From positions 1 to 64,000 of the forward strand of contig SHZK01000009.1 in the NCBI GenBank assembly GCA_009692305.1: a stretch of DNA of 64,000 nt. Reading direction: 5' to 3'. The position numbers and the translations under genes are program-made. The DNA is from Gammaproteobacteria bacterium (GTDB lineage Bacteria > Pseudomonadota > Gammaproteobacteria > Pseudomonadales > Pseudohongiellaceae). The notes under the pieces are model-generated. The model searched no databases. It was not told the origin of the DNA and saw only the letters and a program-made list of their open reading frames with translations. Below are positions 22,983 to 49,992 of the stretch, piece after piece (position 1 is the first letter of the stretch; each line of letters opens with the position of its first letter).

Positions 22983-23651
22983 TCAAAGCAGCGCTTGTCT
23001 CGGATTAAAATAAGTCGTCCCCTTTGGCAATGCGACAATATAATCCACCAGTTGCTGGTAGTCATCTTCATTTTCCGCCAAATCTATCTCTTCGCAGTTC
23101 ACTATAAGCAATGAAGATTGCTTGAAGTAGTGGAAAAACTCCGCATAGGCGCGATTGAGATTTTCCAGATACGCCAGCTCGATATATTGCTCTGCCGGGT
23201 GACCGCGTTTCTGAATGCGCTCGAGCAAGACCGCAGTAGGTGCCTGCAGATAAATTACCAGATCAGGTGTCGGTGCGTTCAGGGTCAGGTGCTGATACAC
23301 CTTTTCATACAATGCATATTCATCCTGGTCCAGATTCTGTTGTGCGAAGAGCTGGTCTTTCTCGATGAGAAAATCTGCCACACGTACTGGCTCGAACATG
23401 TCGTCTTGACGCAGTTCTTGCATCTGCTGCGCGCGTTGAAACAGAAAAAAGAGTTGGGTTGCCAGTGCAAATTGCTGCGGAGACTTGTAGAAACGATCGA
23501 GAAATGGATTCTCTTCACTCTTCTCCAGCAGCAAGCTGTAATTGAATGTATCAGCAAGACGTTTGCACAGGCTGGTCTTGCCAACTCCAATAGGACCTTC
23601 CACGGCAATAAAGCGCGGCAGGTTTTTCGCTGGAATAGTCTGGCGTGTCAT
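22983..23651 (-). CDS. Deoxynucleoside kinase family protein
   Basis: A 222-residue P-loop kinase: Walker A is GPIGVGKTSLCKRL (about 19-32), followed by an EKSEENPFL segment, and a LID-type RIQKRGHP region near residue 155. It resembles bacterial deoxyadenosine/deoxyguanosine kinases that phosphorylate salvaged deoxynucleosides; exact specificity is not readable. Its ATG overlaps the pcnB stop (ATGA). The slot between pcnB and panB normally holds folK, which is absent. The protein is clearly not HPPK, so folK must lie elsewhere or be missing. Confidence 0.82.
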   Translation of the reverse strand: MTRQTIPAKNLPRFIAVEGPIGVGKTSLCKRLADTFNYSLLLEKSEENPFLDRFYKSPQQFALATQLFFLFQRAQQMQELRQDDMFEPVRVADFLIEKDQLFAQQNLDQDEYALYEKVYQHLTLNAPTPDLVIYLQAPTAVLLERIQKRGHPAEQYIELAYLENLNRAYAEFFHYFKQSSLLIVNCEEIDLAENEDDYQQLVDYIVALPKGTTYFNPRQALL

Positions 23652-25048
23652 TCTGGTTTTCGCTCAGGTGTTCTCTCAAGTGTTCTCTCAAGAGTAGCCG
23701 CAGGTTTCCGCTTGCTGCCACGGCGGCGGCGTTTCTTGACGTCAGCGAGCGTGCCAGTCATTTTTGTTTGCTGCGCAGTATCACCGAGCTGATAATTCGT
23801 CCACCACTGACCTATGCCCTGCAAGTCCTCGCCGGATTCCTCGCGCAGTAGCAGGAAATCATAGGCAGCCCGAAAGCGCGGATGACTGAATGCGCTGGCA
23901 ATGCTGCGTTTATTGGTGCGCTGCAAACGCGCCTGCAATTCCCAGATTTCTTTGGTCGCGATAGTGAACCGCTTCGGGATCGCTGTGTATTGCAATTGTT
24001 CGTGGATTACAGCATCGGCACACTGCTGCAATAGCGCGGGTTGTTCCTGCGCGGCCTGGTTCGAGGAACGTGCTACACGTTTCTGCAAGACTGGCCAAAG
24101 AAATGCAGCAAACAGGAATGCAGGAGTAATCGATTTGCCTTCTGCCAGCCGGTTGTCAGTGTTGATAAGCGCCAGATCGATCAGTCTATTTGCTGGTTCG
24201 TCCGCTCTGGCAAGTTCCAGAACCTCCATAGTTGGGGCAAACAAATAACGACCTACCCGGAATTCTTTTAGCAGTTTGAATGTTTCGAGCGAATTACCAC
24301 TGGTAAATAATTTAATGGTTTCATCGAACAGTCGGGCAGGAGAGATCGATTCAAGCAAGTGTGCGAGTTCATCGATGGGCGCTCGGGTATTCGCTTCAAT
24401 CTCAAAGCGGAGTTTGGCAGCAAAGCGCAGTGCGCGCAGCATGCGCACCGGATCTTCCTTGTAGCGCTCACGGGCATCGCCAATGATGCGAATCTGCTTT
24501 GACTGCAAATCATCCAGTCCATTGCAGAAATCCAGAACTTGAAACCGGTCAATCGTGTAATAGAGTGCATTTACGGTGAAGTCACGCCGTAGTGCATCGG
24601 CATCGATGGTGCCGTAGACATTATCCCGCAGCAGCATGCCACCGGTGGAGTGGGCCGAGTCGAGGCCCTGAATCTGGCGCCGCGATACATCATCAGCTAT
24701 TTCGTTCTGCTGCTCATGGTGTGCGCGAAAGGTAGTAACCTCGATAATCTCGCGTCCGAAGTGAATATGCACGATCTTGAAGCGGCGACCAATGATGCGC
24801 GCATTGCGAAATACCTTCTTTAATTGTTCAGGCGTGGCATCAGTGGCGATATCAAAATCTTTGGGGGTGCCGCCGAGTAGCAGATCCCGTACGCCGCCAC
24901 CCACCAGGAATGCATAGAAGCCGGCGTCGCGTAATGCATACAATACTTTCAAGGCATTCGGCGAAATATTGTGGCGGGAAATGCAATGCTGATCGCGTTC
25001 AACAATTTTGGCTTGGTCAGCGCCAGGTAACGCTGCGAGAGTATTCAT
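23648..25048 (-). CDS. pcnB: Poly(A) polymerase I
   Basis: Adds poly(A) tails to RNA 3' ends and so promotes RNA decay. The 466-residue product has the nucleotidyltransferase core LVGGGVRDLLLGG followed by the metal-binding DFDIATDA, and the RRDFTVNALYY and RYKEDPVRMLRALRFAAKL neck segments of the PcnB/CCA-enzyme family. The C-terminus is basic (KKRRRRGSKRK) and ends in a short duplicated segment (TLERTLERTPER), matching a 12-base direct repeat at about 23663-23690. It lies downstream of the predicted CrcZ-like RNA, as in Pseudomonas. Confidence 0.94.
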   Translation of the reverse strand: MNTLAALPGADQAKIVERDQHCISRHNISPNALKVLYALRDAGFYAFLVGGGVRDLLLGGTPKDFDIATDATPEQLKKVFRNARIIGRRFKIVHIHFGREIIEVTTFRAHHEQQNEIADDVSRRQIQGLDSAHSTGGMLLRDNVYGTIDADALRRDFTVNALYYTIDRFQVLDFCNGLDDLQSKQIRIIGDARERYKEDPVRMLRALRFAAKLRFEIEANTRAPIDELAHLLESISPARLFDETIKLFTSGNSLETFKLLKEFRVGRYLFAPTMEVLELARADEPANRLIDLALINTDNRLAEGKSITPAFLFAAFLWPVLQKRVARSSNQAAQEQPALLQQCADAVIHEQLQYTAIPKRFTIATKEIWELQARLQRTNKRSIASAFSHPRFRAAYDFLLLREESGEDLQGIGQWWTNYQLGDTAQQTKMTGTLADVKKRRRRGSKRKPAATLERTLERTPERKPE

Positions 25049-25106: not shown

Positions 25107-25450
25107 AAAAATTAAAGCAATGCTTGAGCGAAGGGGGGTAAGGAGAGACCTGAATTGAGGAAGTTTATTGGGAGGGTGAATACCACCCCCCCGAGGAGGA
25201 TATAGCAATTTTTATTATTATTAATCCAACTTTTCTTTTTGTTATTTAGTGGGCCCCATATACGGAGCCGCATAAGCGCTAGGTTGTTTGGTAAGGAGCG
25301 CAGTAACAATCCCATTACTGTTATCTGCCCCGAACCCGACCTTGTTTTTATTTAATGCACTAACTTATTGTCTTAACTCAGTAATGCTATTTTTGTTTTT
25401 ATTGAGGCTTATTATTATTATTTATTATTATTATTTATCGTAGTTAGCGT
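25107..25450 (-). ncRNA. crcZ: Predicted CrcZ-like small RNA with A-rich Hfq/Crc sites
   Basis: The 549-base cbrB-pcnB gap has no credible protein gene. On the minus strand, a sigma-54 promoter (25461-25476) predicts a start near 25450. The transcript has five A-rich patches of (AAN)n type: 25409-25437 (29 nt, almost pure UAA/AAU repeats), 25389-25404, 25343-25356, 25231-25249 and 25207-25224. In Pseudomonas, CrcZ occupies exactly this place (cbrA-cbrB-crcZ-pcnB), depends on CbrB and sigma-54, and uses such CA motifs to bind Hfq with Crc, relieving catabolite repression. A strong GC hairpin lies at 25170-25192. The 3' end is uncertain: a weak hairpin with five U residues at 25107-25126 is the best candidate, giving about 340 nt. 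The identity is inference from position, promoter and motifs. Confidence 0.75.
25170..25192 (-). other. GC-rich hairpin within the CrcZ-like transcript
   Basis: On the minus strand a nine-pair stem (GGGGGGGUG with CACCCUCCC, one G-U pair) closes a five-base loop GUAUU. It is not followed by a U run, so it is not a standard intrinsic terminator. The same G run could instead pair with a downstream ACCCCCC at about 25133-25139, so two structures are possible. It separates the five A-rich patches from the pcnB leader. Confidence 0.7.
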
Positions 25451-25459
25451 GCGATAAGG

Positions 25460-25477
25460 AGCAGGAACTGTGCCAAT
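25460..25477 (-). promoter_or_regulatory. Sigma-54 (-24/-12) promoter of the CrcZ-like RNA
   Basis: On the minus strand the sequence reads TTGGCACAGTTCCTGC. The -24 GG (25474-25473) and -12 GC (25462-25461) are separated by the required 10 bases, and TGGCAC matches the -24 consensus exactly; the -12 element is CTGC instead of TTGC. It faces away from cbrB toward pcnB, about 410 bases before the pcnB start. The sigma-54 gene (48493-49992) and a sigma-54 activator (cbrB) are both in the window. Confidence 0.8.
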
Positions 25478-25548: not shown

Positions 25549-25595
25549 TGTTACTAACTGTCTCTGAAAATATGGGTATTTGGGTAGCGGTAACA
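25549..25595. promoter_or_regulatory. Candidate CbrB upstream activator sites
   Basis: TGTTAC at 25549-25554 and its inverse GTAACA at 25590-25595 lie 100-145 bases upstream of the predicted start of the CrcZ-like RNA, a normal distance for activators of sigma-54 promoters. The second half overlaps the space just after the cbrB stop codon. From memory this resembles CbrB target sites in Pseudomonas, but I cannot verify the consensus here. Confidence 0.45.
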
Positions 25596-25597
25596 CA

Positions 25598-26977
25598 TCA
25601 AGCTGATTTTTTCTTGCGCGGAATCCCGAAACGCTGACGCCTTTCCCACAGGCATTTGCGACTTATTCCCAGCTTCTTGGCCAATTGGGTTTCGTTCATC
25701 GCATCCTGATGTTCCAGCACGAAACGCTGGAAATAATCTTCCAGAGAGAGCTCTTCACCGGGCTCACTCATCAGCGACATAAGGCGCGGGGAGTTTGCGC
25801 CTTGCTCCTCGACGACTTTAGCCAGGTCTATGGCGAGTAATTCTTCATCGATTTCGTCTGATTCTGCCAGCACCACGGCTCGTTCCAGTGCGTTTTCAAG
25901 TTCGCGCACATTGCCAGGCCAGGAATAAGCGGCGATGGCCCTGGTCGCGCTGTCAGTCAGTGTCAGCATTGGAGTCTTGAGCCGTGTACAGGTTCTTTTC
26001 AAAATGGCTTGTGCCAGTTCGAGAATGTCATTGCTGCGTTCGCGCAGGGGTGGCAGCACCAAGGTCATGACATTGATACGATAGTAAAGGTCTTCCCGGA
26101 ACTGGCCGTCGATCACGAGTTGCTTTAAATCCCGATGCGTTGCTGCAACCAGGCGCACGTCCACTTTTCTCGATTTTACCGAGCCTACCTTGCGAATTTC
26201 GCTTTCTTGCAACACGCGCAACAACCGGGCTTGTGCTTCCAGCGGCAGTTCACCGATTTCATCCAGAAATAAAGTGCTGTCATGGGCCGCCTCAACGAGA
26301 CCGGTACGCGTCGCTGTGGCTCCGGTGAATGAACCTTTTTCGTGCCCGAACAATTCTGACTCGATCAGGTTTTCAGGAATCGCCGCGCAATTTACCGAAA
26401 TCATCTCGTGGTCATGCCTTACACTTAAATTATGAATGGCGCGTGCCACCAATTCTTTGCCGGTACCGGACTCGCCGTTGATCAATACAGAGGAGTTGGT
26501 CTGGGCCACTTTGCGAATGCGCCGAAACAGCTCCAGCATTTGCGGACAGCTACCGATCATGCCATGCACGGGTGGGGCGGAGATGTCTTCTCCGGGAAGT
26601 GGCGGTTTGACCTTGTGGCCACCTTTCTCGCGAATGATCTTGGCCACCGAGTCAATCAATTCATTATGTTCGAAGGGCTTGGTGATGTAGTCGACCGCGC
26701 CCATTTTCATTGAGTCGATCGCGGATCGAATACTGGAGTAGCTGGTCATGATCAGGACCGGGGTCTTCGTGGCTTTGATCAGGTCAGTGCCAGGAGCGCC
26801 GGGTAAGCGCAAGTCGCTGATGATGACGTCAAAGTCATCCATATCAAATTTTTCCAGCGATTCTTTTACAGTGCCAGCTTCGCTAACGCGATAATCGTGA
26901 CGTTCGAGCAGGCGCTTCAATGCCGTTCGGATTACCACTTCGTCTTCTACTACCAAAACCTGATGAGTTGCTGCCAT
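25598..26977 (-). CDS. cbrB: CbrB-type sigma-54-dependent response regulator
   Basis: A 459-residue NtrC-class regulator. The receiver domain (about 5-115) has the phosphorylation site in VIISDLRLPG. The AAA+ domain (about 140-370) has Walker A GESGTGKE, the sigma-54 contact loop GSFTGA (a variant of GAFTGA) and Walker B LFLDEIGEL. The C-terminal Fis-type helix-turn-helix ends in LAKKLGISRKCLWERRQRFG, closely matching CbrB of Pseudomonas. It lies 100 bases after cbrA, its sensor, and immediately before a sigma-54 promoter. It likely activates the CrcZ-like RNA and genes for poor carbon sources. Confidence 0.92.
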   Translation of the reverse strand: MAATHQVLVVEDEVVIRTALKRLLERHDYRVSEAGTVKESLEKFDMDDFDVIISDLRLPGAPGTDLIKATKTPVLIMTSYSSIRSAIDSMKMGAVDYITKPFEHNELIDSVAKIIREKGGHKVKPPLPGEDISAPPVHGMIGSCPQMLELFRRIRKVAQTNSSVLINGESGTGKELVARAIHNLSVRHDHEMISVNCAAIPENLIESELFGHEKGSFTGATATRTGLVEAAHDSTLFLDEIGELPLEAQARLLRVLQESEIRKVGSVKSRKVDVRLVAATHRDLKQLVIDGQFREDLYYRINVMTLVLPPLRERSNDILELAQAILKRTCTRLKTPMLTLTDSATRAIAAYSWPGNVRELENALERAVVLAESDEIDEELLAIDLAKVVEEQGANSPRLMSLMSEPGEELSLEDYFQRFVLEHQDAMNETQLAKKLGISRKCLWERRQRFGIPRKKKSA

Positions 26978-27077: not shown

Positions 27078-30005
27078 CTATTGTGCCGACTCAGGCTCCT
27101 CATGATAACAGGGAAAACGCAGTATTACTTGTGTGCCGCCACCCCGATCCTTGTCTACTGGACTGATTATATCCACATCTCCATCCAAATCTTCAACTAT
27201 GCTGAATACCAGCGACAAGCCCAGTCCGGTACCTTCGCCTGCTTCCTTGGTCGTGAAGAAAGGATCGAACACGCGGTCGCGAATGGCGGCGGGAATGCCG
27301 ATGCCATCATCAGTAACAGTAATTCGTACCTGCTTGCCGGCAACAGTTGCCTGCAAGGAAATATTGCCATTATGCTGACAGGCATCCCTCGCGTTATTGA
27401 TCAGATTGATCAGCACCTGCAAGAGTCGCTGCGAATCACCGCGAATGACTGCGTTGGGGTCGCAGTCCAGCTGGAAATGTAAATCCTTGCTCTTCTTGTC
27501 CAGCGAAATAAGTGTCTTCGCTTCTTCCATACACTCGGCAATTACAACCGGAGCATTGGCATACTGTGGATTGCTGGTGCCGGCGTGCGCGAAGCTGACG
27601 AGTGACTGCAAAATCTTCGACGTGCGGTCAGTCTGTTCAATAATCTGCCTGGCAAGTTTATTTAATTCGTCATCGTGGTATTCATCGCGGATAGTTTGCG
27701 CGAGACAGGCGATGCCGGTGATCGGATTGCCGATTTCGTGGGCGACACCGGCGGCCAAACGTCCAATCGAGGCCAGGCGTTCGCTGTGAGAAAGACCAGC
27801 TTCCAGAATTTCAGTTTCGGTTATGTCTTCAAGCAACATGATCATGCCTTCATGTGGACTGCCGGCAGCAGTGGTGTCCTCGATGATTGCCTTGTGCAGG
27901 TTGACTGATTTTTTCTGTCCGTTCAGTTCGAAATAATGTTTGAAGGAGTGATTGGAGTCTTCGTCGATAAAATTCGTGAACAATGACAGCCATGGCTCTT
28001 TCAGGTCGACTATATTTAACCCGAGTATTTCTGTGCTGTTAATGCCGGTGAAACGCTCCATCGCCTGATTCCACATGACAATCTCATCGTCGGAACTCAG
28101 CGAGCATACGCCGAGTGGCAGATCGAGTAACACCTGCCGGTGATAACGCCGCAGACTATCCAGTTCGGCTGCCATGCCGGAAAGATTGCTGCGGTAAGCT
28201 TCGATGCGGCCTTCGATCATGTTCAGATCGGCGCTACCGTGCTGCGAGACCAGGCTGTAGGGCAAATATCCATCGATCAATTCCCGGGCTATCGAAGGAC
28301 CCAATAGTCCGGACAGATTTGCCTCCAGGCGACCACGTAGTCGACGCAATGCATAGGGGCGGCGGTCATCGATTTTGATGCTGAGATCCTGCAATGCCTG
28401 CATGACTTCTCGCGTGGCGGTCTTTTCGCCCAGTGGTTTACTAAGGCTCTTGATAAACTCTGCCGGTGATTTCGCGACAAGTCCGCTGCGTTTGCGGCGT
28501 TTGATGGTATCTAGTGTGCAGATGTCGGCAGAGCTGCGTTCTTCATCGCTCGTCTCGCTCGCTAACGAGACGAGTACGAACAGGATGCTGTTGAGCAGCA
28601 GTGAGACGATGGCAATCCGGCTCCAGTTAAGCTCAGTCATCGTCTCCGGATCGGCGGCGGCGAATATCGGCAGCATGAGGAATACAAGCCAGACGAATAC
28701 TCCGGCACCGAGGCCCGCAAGAAATCCCCGAGTGTTGCCATTGGGCCAGTAGAGAATCGCGATAATGCCCGGCAGGAACTGCAGTCCGGCAGAAAAGGCG
28801 ACGATGCCGATTAACTGAATACTGATTTTTACATCGGGTAAATAGTGAAACAAGAAGCCGGCCCAGATTAGAGCTGTGATGAGTATGCGTCTTTTCCACA
28901 ACAACCATTTATATATGTCATCTCTGGCTGTTGGCTGGTAGAACGGCAGGATCAGGTGATTGAGGCACATGTTGGACAGTGCCAGAGTTAGCACAATAAT
29001 CAATCCGCTGGTTGCAGACATACCGCCAATATAGGCGATCAGCGTCAGGAAAGGCTTGCCATATTCGACGCCAATTACCACGGGCAGATACTCTACTTGC
29101 ACAAGACTGCCGGATTGCAATCCTGCCCACAGGATCGGTAACACAGGCAGACTCATTAACAACAGATATAGTGGTAGCCCCCAGCTGGCTACCGAAAGTG
29201 AACGCTGGCCGTTGCTTTCATTAAATGTCGCATAGAACATATGTGGCATGGCAACCGCAGCAGTGAAGAACATCAACGCCATGATATGAAATGAACTGAA
29301 GTAATTGGTATTTTGCAGAGAGTCAAGCAAGCGCGGTTGTGAGTGCAACCACTGCTGCATTTCGTCGAGCCCGCCGAAACCGCCGACTACTGCGAACGCT
29401 CCCACTGCCAGAAATGCGACAAGCTTGACCAGGGACTCGAAAGCAATCGCCATGACTAGTCCGTCGTGTCGCGTACGACCGGCGCGTCGCGATGTTCCAA
29501 ACAGAATCGAAAACACTGTGATCACTACACAGAAGCCTACGGCCAGCAATCCCTGCGAGGCAGCGGGCGAGAGTATGTCAGCCGTGTCTGCTACGGCGCG
29601 GATCTGCAATGCAATCAGTGGCGTCACGCCGATTAGAGTAACGAGCGTGGTCACAGTTCCAGCCCATGGTGAGCGATAGCGAAAGGCAATCAGGTCCGCG
29701 AGGGAACTAAGCTGGTAGGTTCGAGTCAGGTTCAGCAGCGGCTTCAGCAGCAACGGCGAGAACAGGAAGGCGAGAGAAATTCCAATCGAGTGAGCCAGAT
29801 AACCGTAACCATCCCGCAGGGCATTGCCGACAGCGGTGTAATACGCCCATACGCTCGCGAACACTCCCAGTGCCAGTACATATACCACCGGGTGGCGCAC
29901 GACCGCTTGCGGTATCCAACCCCGATCTGTAATGAAGGCAATGCCAAACAGCAAGGCGAGGTAGCCGCTGCCGAGCAGGATAACTGTGGTGATATCGTAG
30001 TTCAT
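27078..30005 (-). CDS. cbrA: CbrA-type sensor histidine kinase with transporter domain
   Basis: A 975-residue inner-membrane sensor, the length expected for CbrA. Residues 1 to about 480 form a sodium/solute symporter-type domain with about 13 helices. A linker follows, then a PAS domain (about 620-735, DLPLGVCSLSSDDEIVMWN). The kinase core has phospho-acceptor His756 in AHEIGNP, the N box near 870, and G boxes DDGIGIP and GTGLGLS. In Pseudomonas CbrA-CbrB senses carbon/nitrogen state and can transport histidine. A perfect 9-base inverted repeat lies in the coding DNA at 28550-28575. It follows a small membrane protein gene, as in Pseudomonas. Confidence 0.92.
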   Translation of the reverse strand: MNYDITTVILLGSGYLALLFGIAFITDRGWIPQAVVRHPVVYVLALGVFASVWAYYTAVGNALRDGYGYLAHSIGISLAFLFSPLLLKPLLNLTRTYQLSSLADLIAFRYRSPWAGTVTTLVTLIGVTPLIALQIRAVADTADILSPAASQGLLAVGFCVVITVFSILFGTSRRAGRTRHDGLVMAIAFESLVKLVAFLAVGAFAVVGGFGGLDEMQQWLHSQPRLLDSLQNTNYFSSFHIMALMFFTAAVAMPHMFYATFNESNGQRSLSVASWGLPLYLLLMSLPVLPILWAGLQSGSLVQVEYLPVVIGVEYGKPFLTLIAYIGGMSATSGLIIVLTLALSNMCLNHLILPFYQPTARDDIYKWLLWKRRILITALIWAGFLFHYLPDVKISIQLIGIVAFSAGLQFLPGIIAILYWPNGNTRGFLAGLGAGVFVWLVFLMLPIFAAADPETMTELNWSRIAIVSLLLNSILFVLVSLASETSDEERSSADICTLDTIKRRKRSGLVAKSPAEFIKSLSKPLGEKTATREVMQALQDLSIKIDDRRPYALRRLRGRLEANLSGLLGPSIARELIDGYLPYSLVSQHGSADLNMIEGRIEAYRSNLSGMAAELDSLRRYHRQVLLDLPLGVCSLSSDDEIVMWNQAMERFTGINSTEILGLNIVDLKEPWLSLFTNFIDEDSNHSFKHYFELNGQKKSVNLHKAIIEDTTAAGSPHEGMIMLLEDITETEILEAGLSHSERLASIGRLAAGVAHEIGNPITGIACLAQTIRDEYHDDELNKLARQIIEQTDRTSKILQSLVSFAHAGTSNPQYANAPVVIAECMEEAKTLISLDKKSKDLHFQLDCDPNAVIRGDSQRLLQVLINLINNARDACQHNGNISLQATVAGKQVRITVTDDGIGIPAAIRDRVFDPFFTTKEAGEGTGLGLSLVFSIVEDLDGDVDIISPVDKDRGGGTQVILRFPCYHEEPESAQ

Positions 30006-48492: not shown

Positions 48493-49992
48493 TTAAGTCA
48501 GGCGTTTGCGTTCATTTGAAGGCGCTATCGAAAGTGATTCCCGATACTTGGCAATGGTACGCCTGGCGACGTTGATGCCTTTTTCTTCGAGTAACTCGGC
48601 TATTTTAATATCACTCAGTGGTTTTCTGACATTTTCCGCAGCAACTAATTTCTTGATAATTGCCCGAATCGCGGTCGACGAGCACTCACCGCCACCGCTG
48701 GTGGAAACATGGCTTGAGAAGAAATACTTAAGCTCAAAGATTCCTTTCGGAGTATGCATGTATTTCTGGGTTGTAACTCGCGAAATAGTCGACTCGTGCA
48801 TGCTCACTGCTTCAGCTATGTCGCGTAGCACCAGCGGCGTCATGGCTTCTTCGCCATATTCCAGAAAGCCTTTTTGATGTTCGACGATGCGAGTCGCCAC
48901 TTTCATCAGGGTTTCGTTACGGCTCTGTAAACTCTTTAAGAACCAACGCGCCTCTTGTAGGTTGTCCCGCAGATAATTATTGCCATCGCTGGAATCAGCT
49001 CGCTTTACCAGAGAAGCGTAATTGCTATTAATACGAATTTTTGGTGCTGTTTCAGGGTTCAGTTCTACTTTCCAATTGCCGGTGTCCGGGTTTTTACTGA
49101 CAATTACGTCGGGCACTACATAGCTGGTTGAAGGCGGCGCGATATTTGAACCCGGGCGCGGGTCGAGACTTTCAATTATAACAATCGCTTCCTGCAGGTC
49201 GGCTTCTTTTAGCCGTGTGCGACGCATTAGCTGTGCATAGTCCCTGTGCCCCAATAATACCAGGTGCTCGCTGATGATGAGTTTCGCGTTTCTAATCACG
49301 TGCGCTTGTGCAGGATCATTAAACTGATTTAGCTGAATCAGGAGACACTCTGCCAGATCACGGTAGCCCACCCCAACTGGATCAAACTGTTGAATGCGAT
49401 GCAGCACCGCGAGAATTTCATCCAGTTCAATTCCCAGGTCTTCTGCAAAGCTGGAGTGAATGGATTCGACGTCCACGGTCAGCATGCCGTTCGTATCAAT
49501 AGCATCAATAATCGCCATTGCCACAGCCCGGTCCAGCTCTGACATGGGTGTAAGATTCAGCTGCCAGTAAAGGTGGTCTTGCAAGGTTTCCTCGACGCTG
49601 TTGCGAGATTCAAAATCCATCGAATCAGATTCGAAAGAGCCGCCGGAATTTGCATAATTGGTCGGAAAATTGTCATCCCAGTTGTTGTCAACGGCATAGT
49701 CAGAGACTGACTGTTCGTCCCAGCTGGTTTCTTCGTTAGCCGCAGCAGGAGGCTGGGAATCGTCGGAATTGGCCGGTTGCTGTTCGCCGTTGGTGCTGGT
49801 GCTGTTTTGCGGTCGCAGGGTTTCTACTTCTTCGTTCGGCTCAGCCAGTTCCAGCATGGGATTCGACTCCAGCACCTGGTGAATTTCTTGCTGTAGATCG
49901 AGCGTAGAAAGCTGCAGCAGGCGAATCGCTTGCTGCAGCTGGGGAGTCATGGTCAATTGCTGGCCAAGCTTGAGCTGAAGCGAGAGTTTCAT
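48493..49992 (-). CDS. rpoN: RNA polymerase sigma-54 factor
   Basis: A 499-residue sigma-54. Region I is the Gln/Leu-rich activator-contact segment ([20 protein letters not shown]). Region II is acidic and variable (about 55-120), the core-binding domain follows, and the C-terminal RpoN box reads [12 protein letters not shown], which recognises the -24 element. This is the sigma factor required by CbrB and by the promoter at 25461-25476. It is followed leftward by ptsN. Confidence 0.95.

Follow-up and report, generated by a model that had tools for sequence, protein, structure and literature searches.

A CrcZ-like RNA between cbrB and pcnB in a genus with Hfq and apparently without Crc

In Pseudomonas aeruginosa, Hfq is the principal repressor, which binds A-rich ribosome-binding sites, while CrcZ acts as a decoy and Crc has an ancillary role, according to passages of a study from 2014 (PMC4063720). 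In excerpts of work published after 2014, Crc is termed a co-repressor. A passage of a 2022 review (PMC8871633) treats CbrAB with the conserved cbrA-cbrB-crcZ order as unique to the Pseudomonadaceae, and as known from Pseudomonas and Azotobacter only. The matches listed by a full-text literature search held, in their titles and abstract starts, no description of CrcZ outside this family; subscription papers and preprints were outside its scope. One comparable RNA is sRNA99 of Acinetobacter baumannii, which is bound by Hfq and contains three AAN motifs. It was likened to CrcZ by its authors, but is not called a CrcZ homologue in the passage concerned (PMC12802169), and we compare it by description only. 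A second Acinetobacter paper with the word CrcZ just cites CrcZ papers, as far as the matching text goes.

We analysed a window of 64,000 nucleotides (the whole stretch of DNA under study). The region between its cbrB and pcnB genes is likely a CrcZ homologue, which would be driven by CbrB and sigma-54 and serve as an Hfq decoy acting without Crc. With CrcZ (RF01675) of Pseudomonas and Azotobacter it shares the place between cbrB and pcnB, the sigma-54 box, the F and R2 half-sites in nearly the same register, the A-rich stretches and a 3' hairpin. The predicted RNA is shorter, however, with about 280 nt versus the 407 nt given in the relevant part of PMC4063720. Pseudomonas and Azotobacter also have CrcY and CrcX, RNAs of the same kind; for CrcY, a passage of PMC8871633 states activation by CbrB and sigma-54. 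Further differences from CrcZ are the missing R1 half-site near -103, a score of 31 bits versus a gathering score of 95, and a genome in which no Crc was found. In contrast to CrcY and CrcX, the RNA has a single copy in its genome (model R1, E 0.01). Sponge RNAs of the RsmY/RsmZ type follow the same decoy principle with repeated protein-binding motifs, but differ in the protein (RsmA/CsrA), the motif (GGA) and the regulator.

The cbrB-pcnB locus and its promoter

The minus strand of the window carries, in this order, dksA, gluQ, cbrA, cbrB, a gap of 549 nt, pcnB, a deoxynucleoside kinase gene, panB, panC and acs. The names panB and panC presumably apply, going by the translations, and so does gluQ, whose product matches class I tRNA synthetases. 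The features around the gap, together with rpoN elsewhere in the window, are:

27078..30005, minus strand: cbrA, sensor kinase (HisKA, HATPase_c and PAS domains; 49.7% identity with Pseudomonas fildesensis CbrA over residues 1-974)
25598..26977, minus strand: cbrB, sigma-54-dependent response regulator (62.5% identity with Pseudomonas fildesensis CbrB)
25590..25595, minus strand: CbrB half-site F, TGTTAC, 120 nt ahead of the sigma-54 box
25549..25554, minus strand: CbrB half-site R, GTAACA, at -79 relative to the sigma-54 box
25460..25475, minus strand: sigma-54 (-24/-12) promoter TGGCACAGTTCCTGCT, with GG at 25474-25473 and GC at 25462-25461
23648..25048, minus strand: pcnB, poly(A) polymerase (TIGR01942 above its cut-off)
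48505..49965, minus strand: rpoN, sigma-54 (TIGR02395, E 2.2e-147)

The full-length matches to Pseudomonas fildesensis CbrA and CbrB identify the pair, a kinase with an SLC5-like N-terminus beside an NtrC-type regulator. In the domain search, no Pfam transporter domain reached 1e-5 in CbrA. The gap downstream of cbrB and ahead of pcnB is overlapped by eight open reading frames of at least 20 amino acids (33-67 amino acids), and the stretch of about 280 nt that would form the RNA has no credible gene. A small open reading frame with a GTG start (30255-30079, minus strand) ends 74 nt short of cbrA without overlapping it. By eye, it resembles a cbrX-like frame that Pseudomonas fildesensis (L123) has ahead of its cbrA.

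The sigma-54 promoter named in a preliminary description of this DNA holds up. The box lies at 25475-25460 and is kept in 24 of the 26 loci of the genus in which an intergenic region follows cbrB. From its GG and GC positions, a transcription start is predicted near 25449 on the minus strand. With half-site letters taken from an excerpt of PMC6296734, 22 of these 24 genus loci with the box have an exact TGTTAC at -117 to -121, and 23 have GTAACA, likewise exact, at -77 to -81. In the Pseudomonas loci (L037 and L123), TGTTAC is at -124, GTAACG at -80 and -82, and a further site at -103/-104. At the level of sequence, the locus thus has the sigma-54 promoter and CbrB half-sites of a CrcZ gene.

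The two exceptions (L028 in G001 and L031 in G025) match the RNA model at 96 and 93.5 bits, yet have neither the sigma-54 box nor TGTTAC. A TATAAT-like stretch occupies the place of the box, and perhaps another sigma factor is used there. Loss of rpoN might be one reason for the missing box. The gene was detected in 16 of 19 genomes searched, including G025. It was not found in G001, G014 and G021 (75, 72 and 96% complete). In Pseudomonas fildesensis, the Rfam family P36 (RF01679) matches L123:5471-5531 with 42 bits, a stretch that lies ahead of crcZ and contains the CbrB half-sites. The P36 'sRNA' family may therefore represent the cbrB terminator plus enhancer site.

Motifs, structure and model matches of the RNA

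The predicted RNA and its elements are:

25167..25449, minus strand: CrcZ-like RNA, predicted start 25449 (Rfam CrcZ and models R1 and R2)
25409..25435, minus strand: A-rich motif 1, AAN repeats, two adjoining runs
25390..25403, minus strand: A-rich motif 2, AATAAAAACAAAAA
25342..25352, minus strand: A-rich motif 3, AATAAAAACAA
25233..25246, minus strand: A-rich motif 4, AATAACAAAAAGAA
25209..25222, minus strand: A-rich motif 5, AATAATAATAAAAA
25170..25192, minus strand: 3' hairpin (terminator stem), G+C-rich and without a U-run

Several A-rich (ARN)n motifs of the kind bound by Hfq are thus present, and the five patches described previously were right in substance, the first of them being two adjoining runs. 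In total, six (AAN)4+ runs cover 84 nt of the predicted RNA (25449-25167). Dinucleotide shuffles had on average 0.29 runs covering 3.6 nt, and none of 2000 reached the observed run count or coverage. No such run lies on the opposite strand of the intergenic stretch, and no other stretch of 283 nt with at least 50 nt in runs was found in the whole window on either strand (in steps of 20). The long-motif pattern AANAANAANAANAAN{0,4}AANAANAA has one match in the 3.08 Mb genome, at this site; the same pattern reversed, which is also AAN-like, has two. All 26 genus loci carry at least two sense (AAN)4+ runs, and three of the 26 have one antisense run of 12 nt.

The structure was derived from 19 of the 26 genus cores, omitting the truncated L012 and L017 and the divergent L023, L026, L028, L031 and L036. 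The consensus comprises six helices with 32 pairs in all; as three of the helices are nested, there are four stem-loops, and the A-rich stretches are predicted to be unpaired. Changes on both sides occur in 15 of the 32 pairs, and 90.9% of cells pair, versus 84.9% in shuffles. The covariation score (0.328, with a shuffled mean of 0.214) was reached by none of 500 shuffles and none of six slid versions, and the count of further pair types was equalled by 15 of the 500 shuffles; the structure comes from the same alignment, which biases such counts in its favour. The fold of the window's own RNA has a z of -2.26 relative to shuffles, with three of 200 equally good.

The last helix is the 3' hairpin, with changes on both sides in four of its six pairs. 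Given this conserved hairpin at 25192-25170, the transcribed extent of the preliminary description, which ran to 25107, needs trimming at its end by about 60 nt. The start of pcnB follows about 120 nt past the hairpin. The U-run is absent behind the hairpin in the window, which would make read-through into pcnB possible, and the terminator scan found no consensus terminator in this region. These points would suit a region that is mainly a long regulated pcnB leader, with transcription running on from the sigma-54 promoter and no separate RNA. We regard this as improbable, since the hairpin is kept by covariation and is directly followed by a U-run in nine of the 26 genus loci, two further loci being cut before that point.

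No Rfam family reached its own cut-off in the window. At a lax threshold, the search that the preliminary description had proposed gave an end-to-end match of CrcZ (25405-25139, minus strand, model positions 1-398, E 2.9e-6), although its 31 bits fall below the gathering score of 95. As this curated score is not attained, we do not file the RNA as a member of RF01675. Over 14 loci, only the two Pseudomonas loci pass the gathering score (349.6 bits, and 306.8 bits for L037). Gilvimarinus gilvus scores 36.3 bits, and together with five others it spans 23-39 bits; the remaining six of the 14 have no match at E 0.1 or better.

Model R1, which includes the window, matches 25441-25167 (minus strand) with 221.7 bits. 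Model R2, from which the window and its nearest relative were left out, still picks up the window with 179.6 bits (E 1e-50).

A reading in which the A-rich spacer is neutral and its sigma-54-like box arose by chance would be extremely improbable. A-rich sequence does give weak CrcZ matches: three more lie elsewhere in the same genome (E 0.004-0.05), and nine of 14 control genomes have matches at E up to 10, which shows the reach of A-rich sequence alone. Against such a spacer stand the shuffle test, the near-constant spacing between half-sites and box, the covariation and the leave-out model. The RNA is very probably a homologue of CrcZ, as previously proposed, judging from its position, the sigma-54 box and half-sites, the motifs, the sub-threshold full-length Rfam match and the covarying structure, and it would work like CrcZ.

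Distribution among relatives

The comparison covered 58 genomes. Besides the window's own, these are 36 that share its genus code and 21 from other families of the order. The 21 include a Pseudomonas-like genome (G056) with a Crc 87% identical to that of P. aeruginosa and a CrcZ of 306.8 bits (L037), and the window's genome is coded to a different family from it. In the genus, 30 loci with a CbrB match were fetched, of which 26 offer an intergenic stretch (cut by contig ends in L012 and L017). In L034 and L035, the contig stops inside cbrB, and in L032 and L033 pcnB follows within 59 nt, as it does in three loci beyond the 30 (L057-L059).

Model R1 at E 0.01 matches 28 of the 37 genus genomes, or 27 after setting aside G006, whose match (E 0.007) we take as chance, and the RNA is counted in these 27. 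In G031, the match is on a different contig from its truncated cbrB. A partial second match at a contig end (L205, G034:C28:3954-4124) may be a second copy or a remnant of the assembly. The RNA is not scorable in G004, as the contig ends before the site. Outside the genus, R1 at E 0.01 finds just four of 21 genomes and is thus genus-specific.

For the other families, a CrcZ-like unit was defined as a GG-N10-GC box, with no more than two mismatches allowed, followed by at least two runs. Such a unit was counted in 14 of the 21 genomes; in G037 it sits on a separate contig, ahead of pcnB. It was not counted in G042 (three runs, without a box), nor in G043, G044, G045, G048 and G053, nor in G054, where no close CbrB is present. 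A CbrB scan of contigs from named genomes, with 80 loci listed, gave five apparent orthologues (58-63% identity), the others having 36-45%. Of these five, Pseudomonas fildesensis (L123), Gilvimarinus gilvus (L125) and Dasania sp. (L127) carry the unit; it was not seen in L126, nor in L124, where the contig ends after 355 nt. The CrcZ locus adjoins pcnB in both Pseudomonas loci, L037 and L123. The occurrence outside Pseudomonas therefore goes further than first described, and a cbrA-cbrB-CrcZ-like arrangement in several other families, including those of Gilvimarinus and Dasania, contradicts the restriction to Pseudomonadaceae in the cited passage of PMC8871633. Two tandem units of sigma-54 box and A-rich sequence lie 3' of cbrB in L051 (G041), L039 (G047) and Dasania sp. 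L127, as if a second CrcZ were in place.

In five genus genomes (G017, G020, G021, G029 and G032), cbrB is directly ahead of pcnB and no RNA match was found. The cbrA gene is retained in all three examined (G017, the partly sequenced G020, and G021), and the four of the five that were placed in the CbrB tree form one clade. CbrB can thus persist without the RNA. No CbrB orthologue was found in G006, G014, G033 and G036 (two of them just 72 and 66% complete), and there the RNA is absent too if the G006 match is due to chance.

Crc, Hfq and candidate targets

The preliminary description had expected control of the Crc/Hfq type and had counted an absence of both crc and hfq against its reading. 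Half of this came about, as hfq was found and crc was not. The hfq gene (L001, G000:C58) encodes an Hfq of the P. aeruginosa kind, with 61 of the first 73 residues as in that species, and with residues 29-48 and Y25 identical. In this one genome, the positions of N28 and T49 hold S and A; both residues are named as Crc contacts of P. aeruginosa Hfq in passages on published structures.

The expectation of Crc fails in the window's genome. The sole EEP-family protein found there keeps all seven residues that we take to be the ExoIII active site, and falls outside the Crc clade. It does not fit the definition of Crc as an EEP protein that is catalytically dead and has a basic patch for RNA. Across the genus, 33 Crc-like proteins from 31 genomes were classified, and every one of them keeps the same seven residues and falls outside the Crc clade; in the remaining genus genomes, the search gave no match in four and fragments alone in two. 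In other families, a degenerate Crc that has lost several catalytic residues occurs in 16 of 21 genomes; together with P. aeruginosa Crc, these proteins make up a single clade (SH-aLRT 99). A degenerate Crc was not found in G052 and G057, which both have a CrcZ-like unit, or in the incomplete G038.

The genus could alternatively have a CrcZ homologue and an ExoIII-type protein that took over, or never gave up, the role of Crc, so that Hfq and a live nuclease would form the repressor complex. The full-length genus proteins are indeed 42-50% identical with P. aeruginosa Crc (omitting fragments and a second protein of G017 with 31%), and 10 of the 33 have KRR at Crc positions 139-141. The RNA-contact patch of Crc, however, comprises K77, K135 and 138-141, as given in excerpts of PMC9890229 and PMC6422490. 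K77, K135 and KRR occur together in 15 of the 16 degenerate Crcs versus none of the 33 genus proteins, and in the protein of the window's genome, positions 135 and 138-141 read G, K, L, K and N. Apart from the distant second protein of G017 (L112), the genus proteins group, with a support of only 94 in a quick single-protein tree, with catalytic paralogues; these occur alongside Crc in three families (f4, f9 and f13). Among PDB entries, an exodeoxyribonuclease (2jc5) matches best, with 281 bits, ahead of Crc with 240 bits. Taken together, we give a nuclease in the place of Crc little chance.

In the CbrB tree, the genus is nested among Crc-bearing families (support 93 at the fork with f5 and 85 at the wider fork; 12 genus rows, in quick single-protein trees with some long branches). 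This makes a loss of Crc likelier than its primary absence, and Crc was probably lost in the genus while CrcZ stayed. Conceivably, the genus still has a strongly diverged Crc, or one missed through assembly gaps. We lean towards seeing the genus as a natural crc deletion, in which CbrAB, CrcZ and Hfq would run catabolite control and CrcZ would be selected purely as an Hfq sponge, one sub-clade having then dropped CrcZ and kept CbrAB.

From these features we infer transcription of the RNA, its dependence on CbrB, its binding to Hfq and an effect on carbon use. An untranslated RNA of about 280 nt would be made from the sigma-54 promoter under the control of the CbrA/CbrB two-component system. 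Its helices would space five to six unpaired (AAN)n stretches, each of which would fit the distal face of the Hfq hexamer. Once good carbon sources are exhausted, CbrB would turn on the RNA, which would take up Hfq and thereby allow translation of mRNAs that Hfq silences at A-rich ribosome-binding sites. With Crc apparently lost, the RNA would act on Hfq alone. Such a lineage, with CrcZ and Hfq and apparently no Crc, is a natural setting in which to test if the essential target of the RNA is Hfq.

A search of the window's genome with AANAAYAANAANAA gave 22 matches, four of them inside the CrcZ-like RNA, and 13 with the reversed pattern as a control. Two matches are at ribosome-binding sites, and make an MHS-type metabolite/H+ symporter (L218, G000:C24:6491) and a DASS-type symporter (L222, G000:C33:209235) candidate targets. 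Genomes with and without the RNA were compared for A-richness of these leaders at 30 loci per gene, with one dropped per set for want of a start (G026 and G036) and G004, whose contig ends before the RNA site, assumed to be RNA-positive. The results (MHS, 21 versus 8 genomes, P 0.068; DASS, 23 versus 6, P 0.32) show no clear link between the leader motifs and the presence of the RNA, and they are confounded by G+C, which is 60-64% in the RNA-less clade (five loci) versus 50-56% in four other loci. Contrary to expectation, at least one of the two leaders contains a 12-nt run in each of G006, G014 and G033, which are scored as RNA-less. In the nearest relative, G008, the motif of the DASS gene is 36 nt long.
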